The notes beneath the pieces were generated by a model that ran no database searches, had not been told where the DNA came from, and saw only the letters and a program-made list of their open reading frames with translations. 64,000 nt of DNA from Mesobaculum littorinae. Lineage in GTDB: Bacteria > Pseudomonadota > Alphaproteobacteria > Rhodobacterales > Rhodobacteraceae. Every line of letters starts with the position of its first letter. Within the stretch, counting starts at the first letter, position 1. Below, piece after piece: positions 9,914-58,300 of this stretch. The DNA lies in the NCBI RefSeq assembly GCF_004011175.1, contig NZ_RQXX01000002.1, forward strand, positions 496,001-560,000, given 5' to 3'. The position numbers and the translations under genes were made by a program.

Positions 9914-10003
9914 TCGCGATGATTGTTCCTGATAAATAGATTCGGAAACCTTCGCTTAACCTCTTGGCCGCAATTGTGTCTCAAATTCGACGGAGATACC
10001 GAG

Positions 10004-10456
10004 TTGCAGGTCTTAATCGCAAACTGTGATACTGAAAACTCCAACGCCTGGTCGACGGTCTTCGAAGCCGCGGGGCACCGAGTCGTCTGCGCCAGCACCG
10101 TGTGGGAAGCTGAGCAGAAGCTGCTGTGCCAGCGCTTTGACCTGCTGATCGCTTGCCTCGAGCTGGGCGACGACAGCGGCCTGTCTCTGGTGACAATGGC
10201 CGGATTGCGCACGCCGCCCACGATGGTCCTGCTGATGACCGCGTCTCGTACCTTCTGCCGGGGTGAGCTTTTCGGGTTCGGCAACAACATCGAGGTGGTG
10301 TTGCCTGAGTCGATCCCGCCCGAGGAATTGCTGGCTGTCGGCGAATACCGCGCCTGCCTGCGCTGCGGCGGCTGCGTCGCGACATGCGTTCTGAACACGC
10401 CATCCTGCCCGCCCTCTTTCCTCCGCGTGAACGGCGGCCGGTCCGTGCTGGGCTAG
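10004..10456 (+). CDS. Degenerate receiver-like protein with cysteine-rich tail
   Basis: Best read as 150 residues from TTG at 10004, with CGGAGA just upstream; a longer reading from 9923 adds unlikely residues and has no ribosome binding site. Residues 2-112 follow the receiver fold (strand QVLIAN, helix, strand FDLLIACLELGDDSG, strand MVLLMTA, ending PPEELLAVGEY). The phosphoacceptor aspartate of the third strand is replaced by Cys51, the acidic pair after strand 1 is not standard, and the conserved lysine before the last helix is missing, so it is probably a pseudo-receiver. The tail carries C118, C121, C124, C128 and C135, spaced like a metal site. It converges on the sRNA array. Function unknown. 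Confidence 0.55.
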   Translation: MQVLIANCDTENSNAWSTVFEAAGHRVVCASTVWEAEQKLLCQRFDLLIACLELGDDSGLSLVTMAGLRTPPTMVLLMTASRTFCRGELFGFGNNIEVVLPESIPPEELLAVGEYRACLRCGGCVATCVLNTPSCPPSFLRVNGGRSVLG

Positions 10457-10460
10457 GGCG

Positions 10461-10502
10461 GAAAAGAAAAACGGCGGCGCCCGGGAGGAGGTGGACGCCG
10501 CC
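10461..10502 (-). terminator. Rho-independent terminator closing the sRNA array
   Basis: The last hairpin of the array (stem 10473-10482 with 10493-10502, loop carrying CCTCCTCCC on the minus strand) is followed on the minus strand by TTTTTCTTTT. Stem plus T-run is a standard intrinsic terminator, so the last sRNA hairpin doubles as the transcript end. Confidence 0.8.
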
Positions 10503-10548
10503 GCTCTTCACCACGGGCCAACTCCAGGGAGGAGGAGGGAGCGACCCG
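10473..10548 (-). ncRNA. CcsR-like sRNA, eighth and last copy (repeat unit 1)
   Basis: Loop motifs at 10527-10535 and 10483-10491. Its second hairpin is the most stable of the repeat units (GGCGGCG against CGCCGCC) and leads into the T-run that ends the transcript. Confidence 0.82.
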
Positions 10549-10585
10549 CATATCGTCGGGGTCTCGCGACCCCGGGTGAGAGGCC

Positions 10586-10661
10586 GGCGACGTCCGGGAG
10601 GAGGTGGACGCCGCCGCTCTTCACCACGGGCCAACTCCAGGGAGGAGGAGGGAGCGACCCG
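10586..10661 (-). ncRNA. CcsR-like sRNA, seventh copy (repeat unit 2)
   Basis: Loop motifs at 10640-10648 and 10596-10604; same layout as the other repeat units. Confidence 0.8.
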
Positions 10662-10698
10662 CATATCGTCGGGGCCTTGCGACCCCGGGTGAGAGGCC

Positions 10699-10774
10699 GG
10701 CGACGTCCGGGAGGAGGTGGACGCCGCCGCTCTTCACCACGGGCCAACTCCAGGGAGGAGGAGGGAGCGACCCG
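10699..10774 (-). ncRNA. CcsR-like sRNA, sixth copy (repeat unit 3)
   Basis: Loop motifs at 10753-10761 and 10709-10717; appears identical to the units on either side. Confidence 0.8.
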
Positions 10775-10811
10775 CATATCGTCGGGGCCTTGCGACCCCG
10801 GGTGAGAGGCC

Positions 10812-10887
10812 GGCGACGTCCGGGAGGAGGTGGACGCCGCCGCTCTTCACCACGGGCCAACTCCAGGGAGGAGGAGGGAGCGACCCG
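10812..10887 (-). ncRNA. CcsR-like sRNA, fifth copy (repeat unit 4)
   Basis: Loop motifs at 10866-10874 and 10822-10830; appears identical to the units on either side. Confidence 0.8.
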
Positions 10888-10924
10888 CATATCGTCGGGG
10901 CCTTGCGACCCCGGGTGAGAGGCC

Positions 10925-11000
10925 GGCGACGTCCGGGAGGAGGTGGACGCCGCCGCTCTTCACCACGGGCCAACTCCAGGGAGGAGGAGGGAGCGACCCG
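10925..11000 (-). ncRNA. CcsR-like sRNA, fourth copy (repeat unit 5)
   Basis: Loop motifs at 10979-10987 and 10935-10943; same two-hairpin layout and 44-bp loop spacing as the neighbouring repeat units. Confidence 0.8.
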
Positions 11001-11037
11001 CATATCGTCGGGGCCTTGCGACCCCGGGTGAGAGGCC

Positions 11038-11113
11038 GGCGACGCCCGGGAGGAGGTGGACGCCGCCGCTCTTCACCACGGGCCAACTCCAGGGAGGAGG
11101 AGGGAGCGACCCG
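11038..11113 (-). ncRNA. CcsR-like sRNA, third copy (repeat unit 6)
   Basis: Loop motifs at 11092-11100 and 11048-11056. The upstream hairpin has an interrupted stem (CGGG...CTCC with GGAG...CCCG), the downstream one a 10-bp stem. Sequence upstream of it on the minus strand differs from the other repeat units because the tandem array ends here. Confidence 0.8.
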
Positions 11114-11152
11114 TATCTCGTTGAGACCCAGAAGAGGGCCCCGGAATTCGGC

Positions 11153-11223
11153 GCGACGACACCAGGGAGGAGGTTGGTGCCGTCGCTCTGAACAGGACGC
11201 CCCGGGAGGAGGTGGGGGCCCTG
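11153..11223 (-). ncRNA. CcsR-like sRNA, second copy
   Basis: Hairpin one pairs 11193-11203 with 11214-11223 (one bulge) around the loop at 11204-11213; hairpin two pairs 11153-11164 with 11175-11186 around 11165-11174. Compensating stem differences from the first copy with conserved CCTCCTCCC loops argue for selection on structure. Confidence 0.83.
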
Positions 11224-11267
11224 AACCTTCGATCCGTCACCCTCGGGCCCGGATCAGTTGTAGGGGT

Positions 11268-11340
11268 GCGGCGACATCGGGGAGGAGGTCGATGTCACCG
11301 CGGGCTTCGGTCACGCCGGGAGGAGGTGGCGTGGCCGAGG
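11268..11340 (-). ncRNA. CcsR-like sRNA, first copy after DUF1127 gene
   Basis: Two hairpins on the minus strand, each with CCTCCTCCC in a ten-base loop. The first has an unbroken 13-bp stem (11305-11317 with 11328-11340, G-T pairs included); the second pairs 11268-11279 with 11290-11301 with one mismatch. It starts 9 bases past the DUF1127 stop codon, as expected for a co-transcribed, processed CcsR RNA. Stem sequences differ from all other copies while the loops are the same. Confidence 0.85.
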
Positions 11341-11349
11341 CCGAAAACC

Positions 11350-11565
11350 TTATTGGCCGTAAGCCGCTTCCAGAGCGACGCGGCGGATCATCGAACGACC
11401 CAGGCCCAGGTCGGCCAGCTCGCGGTTGCTCAGGGCATCCAGTTCGCTCAGCGTTTCGCGGTAGACGCGATACTGGGCCATCCGCTGACGGACCGACCGG
11501 ATCGCCGCCGACGCACGCTGCGTCGCACCGGTTTCGAAGTTGTTCGAAGCGCTAACAAAAGCCAT
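11350..11565 (-). CDS. DUF1127 small protein, CcaF1-like
   Basis: Encodes 71 residues from the second of two adjacent ATG codons (11565), with GAGG six bases upstream. The C-terminal 40 residues (YRVYRETLSELDALSNRELADLGLG split over the domain, then RSMIRRVALEAAYGQ) are the DUF1127 domain, a basic helical module. In Rhodobacter sphaeroides a DUF1127 protein (CcaF1) is co-transcribed with the CcsR sRNAs from RpoHI/RpoHII stress promoters and binds RNA to help their maturation. The same order, DUF1127 gene then CCTCCTCCC hairpins, is seen here, so I infer the same role. I could not identify a convincing heat-shock-sigma promoter by eye. Divergent from mrp. Confidence 0.88.
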   Translation of the reverse strand: MAFVSASNNFETGATQRASAAIRSVRQRMAQYRVYRETLSELDALSNRELADLGLGRSMIRRVALEAAYGQ

Positions 11566-11843
11566 CATCTGCCTCATACGTCTGTGCGGCGGTACCCTCG
11601 GCCCCGGACCCTTCCGGTTGCTGTGTCCGCCGCTGTTGACGCAAACATCGCCATTATGCTGCGGTTGCACAATCCCGGAAAAGGTCAATGCTGCCATGCG
11701 GCAAATGCATATGACGTGCTGACCTATTTTTTAATCTTTCGGGCGCCAAGGCTGCTGCTTCGCCGGGCATCCCGTGTCTGTCCCCGCCCTTGTCTGCCCC
11801 CGCGATCCGTGGTCCCACTCGGGCAGAACCAAGGAGAGTGTCC

Positions 11844-12974
11844 ATGCCCGTGTCCCGCGACGATATTCTGTCCACCCTTCGCGGCACTGCCCTGCCTGAC
11901 GGGGGGGATCTGGTGTCGCGTGACATGATCCGCGCCCTCACGGTTGAAGGCGGGGTCGTGCGTTTCGTGATCGAGGCGCCCTCGGCCGAGCAGGCCCAGA
12001 CCTACGGCCCCGCGCGCGATGCGGCCGAGGCCGCCGTCCGTAGGCTGCCCGATGTCGCGCAGGTCTCGGTCGTTCTGACGGCGCATGGCCCGGCGGCCCG
12101 GCCCGGCCCCGGCTCCTCCGGGGCGCCGGCGGGTGCAGGGGGCGGCGCGGGCGGGGACGAGCCGCCCAGCCTCAAGGTGGGACGGCATCCCACGCCGCAG
12201 CAGGGGCAGGGGCCGCAGCGAGTCGCGGGGGTCGACCGGATCATCGCCGTAGCCTCGGGCAAGGGCGGGGTGGGCAAATCCACCGTCGCGTCGAACCTCG
12301 CCGTTGCTTTGGCACGCGAGGGGCGCCGCGTCGGGCTGCTCGACGCCGACATCTACGGGCCCTCGCAGCCGCGGATGATGGGGGTCAGCCAGCGCCCGGC
12401 CTCGCCCGACGGCAAGACGATCATTCCGCTGCAGGCGCATGGCGTCACGATGATGTCGATCGGGCTGATGGTCGATCCCGATCGCGCGGTCGTCTGGCGC
12501 GGGCCGATGCTGATGGGCGCGTTGCAGCAGATGCTGGGGCAGGTGGCCTGGGGCGAGCTGGACATCCTGATCGTCGATCTGCCGCCCGGCACCGGCGACG
12601 TGCAGCTGACGCTGTGCCAGCGCACGGCGATGACCGGCGCGCTGGTGGTGTCGACGCCGCAGGACGTGGCGCTGCTGGATGCGCGCAAGGCGCTCGACAT
12701 GTTCCGCACGCTCAAGACCCCGGTCCTGGGGCTGATCGAGAACATGGCCGTCTACCACTGCCCTCATTGCGGGGAGGCGTCGCATCCCTTCGGCGAAGGC
12801 GGCGTGCAGGCCGAGGCCGAAAAGCTGGACCTGCCGTTTCTCGGGGCGCTGCCGCTGGCGCTGGACGTGCGCACGGGCGGGGACGACGGCCGTCCCATCG
12901 CGGCGGGGGATACGCCCGATGCAGCCCCCTACCGCGCGCTTGCCCGCCGCCTGGTCGCGGGTGGGATGGCGTGA
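11844..12974 (+). CDS. mrp: Mrp/ApbC-family iron-sulfur cluster carrier ATPase
   Basis: Encodes 376 residues from ATG at 11844 (AAGGAGAG upstream). An N-terminal MIP18/DUF59 domain (about 1-90) is followed by a Pro/Gly-rich linker and the NTPase domain with the deviant Walker [17 protein letters not shown] near residue 140, a [14 protein letters not shown] switch, and the metal-binding CxxC in YHCPHCG near the C-terminal third. Mrp proteins hold a bridging Fe-S cluster between two subunits and hand it to target enzymes in the cytoplasm. Fe-S enzymes in this window that could use it include SoeA/SoeB and serine dehydratase. It lies directly before the dcw leader. Confidence 0.95.
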
Positions 12975-13458: not shown

Positions 13459-13715
13459 TGGTCATCGAAAGGCAGACGGGCAACGACGCAAACAAAGGCA
13501 TCCAAGACCTTAAGGCGGCACAATAAAAGAAACGCAGGTTTCATACAGGCAGCCCCCTTCCTGACGATACTGAAATCCGGCGCGCGGGCGAGCAGACATC
13601 CCCCCAGGTGGCGCGCGCAGTCGGACGACCCCGGCGACGGGAGAGCGGCGGCGGATCGAAGAATGGCAGCTCTTCGGTCCGCCGTTTCGCGTTCAAATAC
13701 CAGAATTCCGGGGGC

Positions 13716-14222
13716 ATGAATAGAGCGGGGATCCGGGCTGTGGTCCAGACCTTCAGAGGCGATCACACGAACCCGCTGGACAGCAAGTCCCGTGTCTCGA
13801 TTCCGGCCGATTTCCGCAAGGTGCTCGACATGGGCGATCCCGACCGCGAGGCGGGAACGCACCCCCGCGTGGTCATCGTCTACGGCGATCACAAGCGGCA
13901 TCACCTGGAATGCTACACGATCACCGCCATCGATGAAATTGACGAGATTATCAAAGGCATGTCGCGCGGCTCTAAGAGGCGGCGTGCCCTGCAACGGCTG
14001 TTCAACGGCCAGTCGGTCACGGTGTCGATGGACGAAACCGGGCGGCTGGTTCTGTCCGCGCGGCTGCGTGCCGAGGCGGGGCTCGACAAGAAGGCCTACA
14101 TCATCGGCAACGGCGACACCTTCCAGATCTGGAACCCGGAGACCTTCGACGAACTGGCCGACGCGGATCTCGATGCGGACGAGGATTTCGATCCCGACAT
14201 CGATCCGACGGCCTACCTCTAG
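13716..14222 (+). CDS. mraZ: Transcriptional regulator MraZ
   Basis: Encodes 168 residues if ATG 13716 is used; a GTG at 13740 just before VVQTFRGDH would give a protein closer to the usual MraZ start, and neither has a strong ribosome binding site. Two SpoVT/AbrB-like half-domains are present, each with the DxxxR signature: DSKSRVSIPADFR and DETGRLVLSARLR. MraZ binds DNA as a ring-shaped multimer, recognises TGGGN repeats and tunes the dcw operon that it heads. A poly-acidic tail (DADLDADEDFDPDID) is extra. It is followed after nine bases by rsmH. Confidence 0.93.
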   Translation: MNRAGIRAVVQTFRGDHTNPLDSKSRVSIPADFRKVLDMGDPDREAGTHPRVVIVYGDHKRHHLECYTITAIDEIDEIIKGMSRGSKRRRALQRLFNGQSVTVSMDETGRLVLSARLRAEAGLDKKAYIIGNGDTFQIWNPETFDELADADLDADEDFDPDIDPTAYL

Positions 14223-55375: not shown

Positions 55376-58300
55376 GTCTCGCGGTCCTCCTCTGTCGCGG
55401 TCTGGGCATCGGGGCCGCGCGGGATGGGGGCCTCGGGCGCCCGGGGCGCGGGGGCGGCGGCGTCTTGCGCCGGGGTGGCGCGGGGCCGGCCCGCGCCGCG
55501 CCATGCCGCGCCCACGCGCCGCAGCATCCCCGCGATACCGCCTCCCTCGGCCTGCGGCGCATCCGTGGCCGGCTCGGTGGAGGTGCCGGCGGAGGTACCG
55601 GCGGAGGTGCCGGGCGATGGGCCAGTGCCGACCGCGCCGTCGGGGCCCGCTCCCGCCTCGCTCTTCCGCTTCGCCGCCGTCGCCCGGCGCAGCACACCCG
55701 GCCCCCGCCCCACGGGCGAGGCCTGCGGCGGGGTCACCGGAAACGCCTCTCCGGGGTTCTTCACCTTCTCGATCCGCACCCGCAGGTCGAACCATGCCGC
55801 CTGCCCGGTGATCGGGTCCGAGTTGGACCAGCGGTAGCCATCGCCACGCTCGGGCAGAAGCTCGGGGATCAGGTGGTTCAGCAGAAAGCCCTTCTTAGCC
55901 TCGGGCGCGCCGTCCTTGAGGGCCCAGGCGCCCTTGCGCTTGCCGATGGCGTTCCATGTCCAGACGGTGTTCTCGTTCAGCGCCGCCATGTGCGCAACCG
56001 GCACCACGATCTCGCCCGTGGCGGACGACAGCCGGGCCCAGTCGCCTTCGGCAAAGCCATGCGCCTGCCAGACCTTCGTCGGCACGAAAAGCGGGTTCAC
56101 CCCGTGGATCTGGCGCAGCCACGCGTTCTGCGATCCCCAGGAATGGTACATCGCCATGGGCCGCTGGGTCAGCGCGTGCAGGGGGTATTCCACGGGGTCG
56201 GCCAGCCCGTCCGACAGCGGCGGGTACCAGATCGGCAGCGGGTCGAAGACCAGCTTGACCTCTTCGCGCAGCCGCTCGGGCGGGGGCGGGGCGGCCCTGC
56301 CTTCGGCCGCCATCTGGAACCGCCGCAGCGGTTCGCACCAGAGCTGGAAGAGGTAGGGCTGCGGCGTGTCGTAGAACCCCATCGACACGGCCCAGTCCTG
56401 GTAGGCCGCGTTCCAGGGTTTGAAATACCGCGCCTCCTCCGGCACATGCGCCTGAAAGAAGCCGCCGTTCTTGATGTAGCTGTCGATCTGTGCGGCATTG
56501 GGCGCGCCGCGCCCAGGGGTCTGCCCGCGCTCGCCCACCCGCCAGCCGGCCAGCGGCCCGACCCCGGGGCGGCGTTCGTGGTTGGCGATGTAGTCGGCGT
56601 AGTTCTCGTACTTCGCGGAGCCGTCCTCGACGAACCCCGGCAGCTCCAGCCTGTTCGCCAGCTCGATCAGCACCGACTGGAACCCGCGCACGCCCGCGTG
56701 GCCCGCACGCTCGGGCTCGACCACCGGCCAGCGGATCGCGTCCGCCGCAGCGTCGGGTTCGGAAATCGGGCGGTCGAGCAACGAGATGCAGTCGTGCCGC
56801 TCAAGGTAGGTCGTATCGGGAAAGACCAGGTCGGCAAAGGCCACCATCTCGGACGAATAGCTGTCGGCGACGATGATATGGGGGATGCGGTAGGCACCGT
56901 CTTCGTCCGTATCGGTCAGCATCTCCATCGTGGCGCCGGTGTTCATGGACGAATTCCACGCCATGTTCGCCATGTAGAGCATCAGCGTGTCGATGCGGTA
57001 GGGATCGCCCGCATGCGCGTTGGCGATGACCATGTGCATCAGCCCGTGCGCTGACAGCGGCGCGTCCCAGGTAAAGGCCTTGTCGATGCGCCTGGCCCGG
57101 CCGGCCCCGTCGATCAGCAGGTCCTCGGGGCCCTGCACGAAGCCCAGGTGCGGCCCGTCCAGCGGCTGTCCCGGGCGGCATCCGGCATGCGGTTTCGGGT
57201 GCGCGGTCGCGGGCTTGGGGTAGGGCGGCTTGAACCGCATGCCGCCCGGGGTCTCGACGCTGCCGATCAGGATCTGCAGCAGATGAATCGCGCGGGCGGT
57301 CTGGAACCCGTTCGAATGGGCCGAGATGCCGCGCATCGCGTGCATCGCCACAGGCCGCCCGGTCATCGTCTCGTGCCGCTCGCCGCGGAAATCGGTCCAG
57401 GGCTGGTCGATCGTCACCGCCCGGTCGAAGGCCGCCGCCGCGATCTCGGCCGCGATGCGGCGTATGCGGCCTGCGTCGATCCCAAGCTCCGGCGCCACCG
57501 TCTCGGGCGCATAGTCGGACGACAGGTAGCGCTCGGCTATCAGCTGGAACGCCGCGCGATGGGTAACGCCCGCGCGCCGGATCTTGCCCGACAGGTCTGG
57601 CCTCACGCCGGGGGCGTCGTAGGGCGCGGGCTTGCCCGTGCGCCGGTCGATCACCAGCTGCCGGCCTTCATCGTCGCGCAGGGCCAGACCATGGGTCGCG
57701 GATTTCGGATCACCGTCGATCAGTACCGGCGCATTGGTCCAGCGCGCAAGGTAATCGAGGTCGATTTTCCCCGCCTCCAGCAGGCAATGCACGAGGCTCA
57801 GCACCAAAAGCCCGTCGGTCCCGGGCGTCACGCCGACCCATTCGTCGGCCACGGCGTTATAGCCCGTGCGGATCGGGTTCACGGCGATGGTCTTGACGCC
57901 CCGCGCCTTCAGTCGCGACATCCCCATCTTGATGGGGTTGCTGTCATGGTCCTCGGCCACGCCGAACAGCAGGAAAAGCTGCGTCTTCTCCCAGTCCGGG
58001 CTGCCGAATTCCCAGAAGGCGCCGCCCATGGTGTAGATGCCCGCCGCCGCCATGTTGACCGAGCAGAAGCCGCCATGCGCGGCATAGTTCGGCGTGCCGA
58101 ACCCCTGCGCCCAGAGGCTGGTGAAGCTCTGGCTCTGGTCCCGCCCGGTGAAAAAGGCCAGCTTGTCCGGCGCCGCGTCGCGCAAGGGGCGCAGCCACGA
58201 AAGCGCCGTCTCGAACGCCTCCTCCCACGAGATCTCCTCGAACTCCGCCGCACCCCGCGGCCCCACCCGCCTCAGTGGCGCCCGCAGCCGGGCGGGCGAG

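Follow-up and report, generated by a model that had tools for sequence, protein, structure and literature searches.

The 64-kb stretch of the Mesobaculum littorinae genome analysed here (the window; coordinates count from its first letter) carries on its minus strand a short DUF1127 gene, followed by a tandem array of small RNA (sRNA) hairpins of the CcsR/cuckoo (CIN1) type and preceded by two sites resembling operators of the repressor PhaR. We describe the array, its promoter region and the distribution of both among Rhodobacteraceae genomes (the family), and propose how the locus may be controlled.

A CcsR/cuckoo locus of eight units

The gene, the units of the array and its end are as follows.

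11350 to 11565, minus strand: DUF1127 (CcaF1-like) open reading frame (ORF), 71 aa (PF06568, E 1.3e-12; reading frame)
11263 to 11348, minus strand: CcsR-type unit 1, two hairpins with CCUCCUCCC loops (RF02791 42.8 bits, sub-gathering; fold)
11148 to 11227, minus strand: CcsR-type unit 2 (RF02791 45.5 bits, sub-gathering; fold)
11031 to 11118, minus strand: CcsR-type unit 3, first 113-bp repeat (RF02791 27.8 bits; 1-3 nt from units 4-7)
10918 to 11005, minus strand: CcsR-type unit 4 (RF02791 31.7 bits; identical to units 5 and 6)
10805 to 10892, minus strand: CcsR-type unit 5 (RF02791 31.7 bits; repeat comparison)
10692 to 10779, minus strand: CcsR-type unit 6 (RF02791 31.7 bits; repeat comparison)
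10579 to 10666, minus strand: CcsR-type unit 7 (RF02791 31.7 bits; 2 nt from units 4-6)
10466 to 10553, minus strand: CcsR-type unit 8, second hairpin also terminator (RF02791 34.4 bits; overlapping ar14 match 43.4 bits; both sub-gathering)
10462 to 10502, minus strand: terminator-like hairpin and U tract, CCUCCUCCC in the loop (sequence, fold)

Of the 17 copies of the motif CCTCCTCCC in the window, 16 are minus-strand copies located between positions 10483 and 11326 and one is on the plus strand; shuffled windows (n=100) averaged 1.08 copies and never held more than 5. The lone copy beyond the array lies at 58218-58226. Within the array all 16 motifs fall in predicted loops whose flanking arms are able to pair (15 of 16 reached the preset pairing score), and every one of the eight pairs is predicted to form two hairpins, each of which presents the motif in its loop. 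Motif count and folds thus confirm the sixteen same-loop inverted repeats in eight minus-strand pairs that an initial annotation of this DNA had described. Its spacing (44 bp in six pairs, 38-39 in two, about 70 between pairs) also agrees with the measured start-to-start distances, which are 38, 39 and six times 44 within pairs and 76, 73 and five times 69 between them. The first motif follows the DUF1127 stop codon by 23 nt. Fold-energy z-scores in a shuffle test were -8.2, -5.1 and -3.7 for units 1, 2 and 8; those of the GC-rich units 3-7 were weak (about -1.3 to -1.4). The array ends, as had been stated, in an intrinsic terminator, the final hairpin being followed by TTTTTCTTTT, a U tract. 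A simple terminator scan of the region gave no match, its loops being limited to 3-8 nt and that of the array-end hairpin being larger.

To assign the array to a known family, the units were compared with Rfam models. In a permissive scan with RF02791 (CcsR1) all eight matched, with E from 3e-9 to 5e-4; their scores of 27.8-45.5 bits stay below the gathering cut-off of 65.3 bits, and the best ar14 (RF02344) score, 43.4 bits, stays below its cut-off of 58.8 bits. The eight units were the only CcsR1 matches in the 3.97-Mb genome among the 150 of 4263 candidates scored. The RF02791 gathering score is passed by 17 of 394 family genomes, and 324 of them match at E 0.001. Because one of 14 control genomes also gave a sub-threshold CcsR1 match, such matches need context as support. 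Here the context is the DUF1127 gene, which stands directly before the array on the same strand as annotated, and whose best-ranked named relatives, from Gemmobacter and Tritonibacter, are 58-60% identical. In 80 named loci found via the DUF1127 protein, a motif lies at most 200 nt after the stop codon in 77, and at least two motifs are present in 73.

With its two-hairpin units carrying CCUCCUCCC loops and an adjoining DUF1127 gene on the same strand, the locus is a CcsR/cuckoo (CIN1) locus, a known type, in a Rhodobacteraceae genome. A new RNA class is ruled out by the CcsR match at each unit together with the DUF1127 linkage. The CcsR identity proposed at the outset, and the Rfam search over the array named there as its check, hold in so far as every unit matches and the DUF1127 context is like that of Rhodobacter sphaeroides, but not to the level of a gathering score. 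Protein-coding repeats were also set aside: the long ORFs that the array has on either strand track the repeat, and one that was scanned (10384-10689, plus strand) had no Pfam match.

Predicted promoter, PhaR-like sites and PhaR

Upstream of the DUF1127 gene three further elements can be placed.

11691 to 11701, minus strand: PhaR-like operator site 1, CCGCATGGCAG, differing from CTGCNNNGCAG at one position (sequence; conserved context)
11659 to 11670, minus strand: PhaR-like operator site 2, GTGCAACCGCAG, of the form GTGCN4GCAG (sequence; frequency of the form upstream of relatives)
11644 to 11673, minus strand: predicted RpoH-type promoter ATTGTGC ... CGATGTT, overlapping site 2 (suggested by conservation)

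In R. sphaeroides the PhaR site is CTGCNNNGCAG, and PhaR is titrated by polyhydroxybutyrate (PHB) (PMC12542648; here and below, cited papers are used as far as their excerpts reach). We took the 330 nt before DUF1127 in the window and the 80 named loci (n=81). The exact form CTGCN3GCAG is present in 51 of these regions (background 0.0043 per 330 nt, about 0.35 expected in total) and GTGCN4GCAG in 76 (background 0.033, both strands). Both sites occur in 74 regions, and in 72 of these pairs they stand 30 or 31 bp apart. In an alignment of the 74, of which 52 sequences less than 75% identical remained after near-identical ones were dropped, mean information was 1.66 bits in the sites and 0.18 in the flanks; independent conservation is that of the flanking columns only, namely ATGCA/CATTG around site 1 and ATT/CAT around site 2. 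The conserved block reads ATGCAnTTgCTGCATrGCAGCATTG, then about 12 variable bases, then ATTGTGCAnnyGCAGCAT, then CCcTAnnTT or CCCCATnTT, and the -10-like part is CCCCATnTT or CCTAnnTT in many relatives. CCcTAnnTT/CCCCATnTT resembles the consensus of the RpoH -10 element. This agrees with a report that ccaF1 of R. sphaeroides has an RpoHI/RpoHII promoter (PMC10253847). A sigma-70 scan of the region gave no match.

The operators are conserved well beyond these loci. The composite operator was found in 293 of the 394 family genomes, in single copy in 272 of the 293, and the reversed-pattern control gave 3 hits. With a stricter pattern, 16 of 37 family genomes had one operator each and none of 24 genomes outside the family had any; in all 16 loci the first loop lay 331-438 nt downstream.

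The M. littorinae genome (G000) encodes PhaR (PF07879, E 9.1e-28, at C1:106197), adjoined by genes for PHB synthase, PHB depolymerase and a phasin-like protein (phasin match just under the Pfam cut-off), and the upstream regions of its phaZ/phaC and phaP hold three exact PhaR sites. PhaR is encoded in 379 of the 394 family genomes, so that the few genomes without it offer a test by absence. Among array-bearing genomes the operator was present in 252 of 288 with PhaR and in 2 of 7 without (p 7e-4); among those at least 90% complete the counts were 232 of 265 and 0 of 4 (p 3e-4). These p-values treat genomes as independent, and the tallies, counted per genome from the census tables, include incomplete genomes, hence the separate counts for the more complete ones. 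The two PhaR-less exceptions with the operator, G166 and G098, are 71% and 84% complete; the incomplete G344 keeps an exact site 1. In the near-complete PhaR-less G003, G150, G309 and G362 neither site form stands before the array, and mutations are evident in the sites. A tree built on the neighbouring Mrp protein, its backbone mostly unresolved, places G150 among Gemmobacter-like loci and G003 and G309 elsewhere. In one PhaR-less locus, L153 (G309:C1:1578000-1582500), the promoter core runs directly into three CCTCCTCCC loops.

Several observations weigh against control by PhaR. The window promoter has no exact CTGCNNNGCAG, only the near-match CCGCATGGCAG together with GTGCAACCGCAG; its -10 region is unlike that of most relatives, and two congeners keep site 1 with a degenerate site 2. 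Where the PhaR motif of Sinorhizobium meliloti has a pyrimidine (PMC12542648), site 1 reads A or G. The test by absence comprises only four near-complete PhaR-less genomes, and in one of them, G309, no recognisable DUF1127 gene was found between the promoter core and its three loops. The approximately unbiased (AU) test did not reject a single clade of G150, G003 and G309 (p 0.11; pairs p 0.38 and 0.19), and with the poorly resolved Mrp backbone this means that the four operator losses may not all be independent. Furthermore, 33 of the 265 PhaR-bearing, array-bearing genomes at least 90% complete are without the composite pattern. In six operator-less array genomes that were inspected, site 1 is intact in G290, retained by half in G007 and decayed in G300; G373, G062 and G035 showed none in the stretch read. 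Finally, of the 99 genomes that have no motif pair, 39 also carry the operator pattern, and these may hold diverged or single-loop loci.

It is possible, though doubtful, that RpoH alone controls what would then be a plain CcsR/cuckoo array, and that another regulator, for example a LysR-type protein like VtlR, binds the promoter element. The R. sphaeroides reports, in the excerpts, name RpoHI/RpoHII control only (PMC10253847), which likewise speaks against PhaR. VtlR, which acts on sRNAs in rhizobia, has the box GCAT-N3-TG-N3-T (PMC7486931), to which GCATrGCnGCATTG bears a partial resemblance, and three of the four near-complete PhaR-less genomes (G150, G003, G309) still have a GCATnGC core. 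However, the published PhaR site, exact in the 51 loci above, is shared with phaP and phaZ/phaC of the same genome, and the element is lost in PhaR-less genomes. VtlR/LsrB itself was set aside, being reported as unique to Rhizobiales (PMC11975290). In the open-licence papers searched, no link between PhaR and DUF1127/CcsR loci was found; some of the keyword searches were swamped by 'pharm' words.

Loops, spacer hairpins and number of units

The stems vary among units 1, 2, 3-7 and 8 with pairing retained. Between units 4-7 and unit 8 a G-U pair is replaced by G-C and a U-A pair by U-G, and further paired changes are seen toward units 1 and 2. The window and the 80 named loci hold 532 motifs, of which 197 form 8 or more of the 10 pairs in one fixed register; re-pairing the arms of the 532 at random gave a mean of 31 and a maximum of 45. 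In 128 distinct stems, 5 or 6 standard pair types are found at each of pairs 2-11. The covariation tally was restricted to motifs that reach this threshold of 8 pairs; its pairing percentages are selected, and the re-paired control is the actual test. In wide gaps 14 one-mismatch hairpins were found, against 503 exact array motifs, and 11 of the 14 differ at the first base. These covariation counts and the rarity of one-mismatch hairpins indicate a strong constraint on the loop but not on the sequence of the stem.

The CCUCCUCCC loop presumably resembles the anti-Shine-Dalgarno (anti-SD) sequence of 16S rRNA; a search of the genome with a 16S tail pattern gave no match. Duplex energies of the loop with SD-like oligonucleotides range from -6.4 to -20.3 kcal/mol. 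It seems unlikely that the loops do not pair with mRNAs and serve, like CsrB/RsmZ, as a sponge that titrates a protein, for example Hfq or the DUF1127 protein. Constant loops, variable stems and a variable number would suit a sponge as well as an antisense RNA, and CcaF1 binds RNA and affects CcsR RNAs, which also interact with Hfq (PMC8307010). Against titration, the loop is complementary to SD-type sequences at the energies just given, and mRNAs are the reported targets of CcsR RNAs (PMC8307010) and the predicted targets of NfeR1 (PMC10746234).

Between the pairs lies a further hairpin that lacks the motif.

11231 to 11255, minus strand: spacer hairpin, units 1/2, no motif (fold; z -0.1 alone)
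11123 to 11142, minus strand: spacer hairpin, units 2/3, no motif (fold; z -0.45)
11010 to 11025, minus strand: spacer hairpin, units 3/4, GGGGUC-GCAA-GGCCCC (fold, sequence)
10897 to 10912, minus strand: spacer hairpin, units 4/5, GGGGUC-GCAA-GGCCCC (sequence)
10784 to 10799, minus strand: spacer hairpin, units 5/6, GGGGUC-GCAA-GGCCCC (sequence)
10671 to 10686, minus strand: spacer hairpin, units 6/7, GGGGUC-GCAA-GGCCCC (fold, sequence; z -1.4)
10558 to 10573, minus strand: spacer hairpin, units 7/8, GGGGUC-GCGA-GACCCC, with two pairing-preserving changes and a GNRA loop (z -1.3)

In 145 spacers of the named loci the mean z was -2.26, with 94% below -1; in 160 control stretches it was -0.14, with 19% below -1 (all z-scores against mononucleotide shuffles). 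The hairpin is also present at G386, L031, the locus with the top Rfam CcsR1 score. Against it, the window spacers are individually weak (z -0.1 to -1.4, four folded), and in spacer 2/3 a different pairing wins in a longer fold. The spacer hairpin likely separates the units and bounds the cuts between them. Both spacer hairpins and promoter operators look new as features of CcsR loci; the initial annotation, sound for the array itself, had missed them.

Units 3-8 form a tandem repeat with a period of 113 bp. Units 4, 5 and 6 are identical, unit 3 is one and unit 7 two nt off (units 3-7 differ mutually by 0-3 nt), unit 8 differs in its 3' part, where the terminator forms, and units 1 and 2 differ in sequence. 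To see how common such arrays are, two motifs 24-46 nt apart were counted as a pair in the 394 family genomes. Paired loops are found in 295; the M. littorinae genome has 8 pairs, 17 genomes have more and 7 others the same number. The highest counts are 25 (G165), 17 (G300) and 15 (G006 and G050), where pairs in evenly spaced arrays overlap, the 25 pairs of G165 corresponding to 26 loops; the reversed-pattern control gave 0 in most genomes and up to 8 in G311. Among the 80 named loci the longest array equals the present one, with 16 loops. The eight-unit array is therefore at the long end of a wide family range and ordinary for a long-array member. The number had been called expanded; it is indeed twice the four of R. 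sphaeroides, but with 24 of 393 other genomes having at least as many pairs, an exceptional expansion is ruled out by the census.

Other arrangements were seen in the course of this count. L164 (G165:C1:334500-338500) has 26 packed CCTCCTCCC loops, about one per 46 bp and the most among the arrays listed, in near-identical three-loop repeats with a period of about 140 bp. L017 (G331) and L027 (G358) are variants of the two-loop unit with three motif loops per unit, at spacings of 41 and 44-45, and of 41, 40 and 29, respectively.

Within the array 366 nt are identical to the sequence 113 nt onward, so a short-read assembly could miscount the units. It is quite improbable that the copy number is such an artefact, the true array being shorter or longer. 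Matches in the congener G394 are spread over several contigs, three of seven within 200 nt of contig ends, which would fit miscounting; on the other hand, the contig is continuous across the array, the flanking units differ, and a long array is also present in the single-contig genome G300.

Divergent from the DUF1127 gene lies a gene for an Mrp/ApbC-type P-loop ATPase (11790-12974, plus strand). That the operators serve this mrp gene and not the sRNA operon is very unlikely: an mrp match of more than 300 residues is present in 22 of 28 compared loci and in most of them the operators are located in the region that separates the divergent mrp and DUF1127 genes, which counts against PhaR control of the array, but site 2 overlaps the DUF1127-directed promoter at a near-fixed distance from the -10-like bases, and G005 and G031 have the operator with no mrp match in the 4-kb stretch. 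Convergent with the array is an ORF of 177 aa (9923-10456, plus strand) with a weak response-regulator match below the Pfam cut-off. About 2 kb away lies mraZ (13608-14222, plus strand), followed by an ORF that we take to be rsmH-like. In R. sphaeroides the sRNA UpsM originates in the 5' untranslated region of mraZ (PMC7866481).

Proposed mechanism and related systems

Taken together, these results make it fairly probable that an RpoH-type stress promoter gated by PhaR drives the DUF1127 gene and a set of processed anti-SD sRNAs. Stress sigma factors would start transcription of the DUF1127 gene and a 3' untranslated region of tandem hairpin units. Free PhaR may bind both sites, which lie on the same side of the helix at a distance of three turns, one of them presumably overlapping the -35/-10 region, and would repress in the absence of PHB. 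As PHB accumulates, PhaR would be drawn to the granules, and the operon could then respond to stress. The precursor would be cut in its linkers by RNase E and other nucleases into roughly 80-nt RNAs. RNase E and then PNPase would process and turn over the transcript, as with the CcsR RNAs of R. sphaeroides, for which RNase E processing and PNPase are reported (PMC8307010, PMC8625941, PMC7866481). The two CCUCCUCCC loops of each RNA may pair with SD sequences and so lower translation or stability of the target mRNA, and the DUF1127 protein may participate in maturation. The motif-free spacer hairpin might keep adjacent units folding apart and guide or bound cutting.

Reported CcsR effects on C1 metabolism, the glutathione pool and pyruvate dehydrogenase (PMC8307010, PMC8625941) would fit a switch that reads carbon storage. 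For Rhodobacteraceae as a whole, we consider it an even bet that the arrays, of few to more than twenty loops, are direct PhaR targets, that their anti-SD RNAs are released as carbon storage fills and damp translation of carbon-entry genes, and that the array repeats a unit of three hairpins, the third of which lacks the motif and sets processing. If PhaR gating is true, the operator would bring together stored carbon, stress sigma factors and regulation after transcription within a single operon. Taken alone, the array is nothing unusual in the family; it is the PhaR-like operator, present in about three quarters of the sampled family genomes and absent from the near-complete array-bearing ones that lack PhaR, that carries the interest.

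The nearest frame of comparison is R. sphaeroides, whose ccaF1 (RSP_6037) is cotranscribed with a set of four CcsR RNAs. As here, a 71-aa DUF1127 gene is followed by same-strand tandem CcsR RNAs and a terminator (PMC10253847), and the Rfam CcsR1 model, like the present units, has two hairpins with CCUCCUCCC loops. In contrast to CcsR1-4, the locus has eight units, six of which form the 113-bp tandem repeat, its Rfam scores are sub-gathering, and PhaR-like operators and spacer hairpins go unmentioned in the excerpts on CcsR1-4. With the Cuckoo family/CIN1 of alphaproteobacteria it shares a short DUF1127 gene and CcsR-like sRNAs, and in what was available on that family no defining difference was found. 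The ar14/NfeR1 RNAs of rhizobia (RF02344) also have hairpins with the CCUCCUCCC anti-SD motif; unlike the present tandem units behind DUF1127, they have three hairpins and their own promoter (PMC10746234). As for the control proposed here, S. meliloti offers a likeness: PhaR, a PHB-sensing repressor, acts there on the gene of an sRNA, MmgR, an RNA other than CcsR (PMC12542648).

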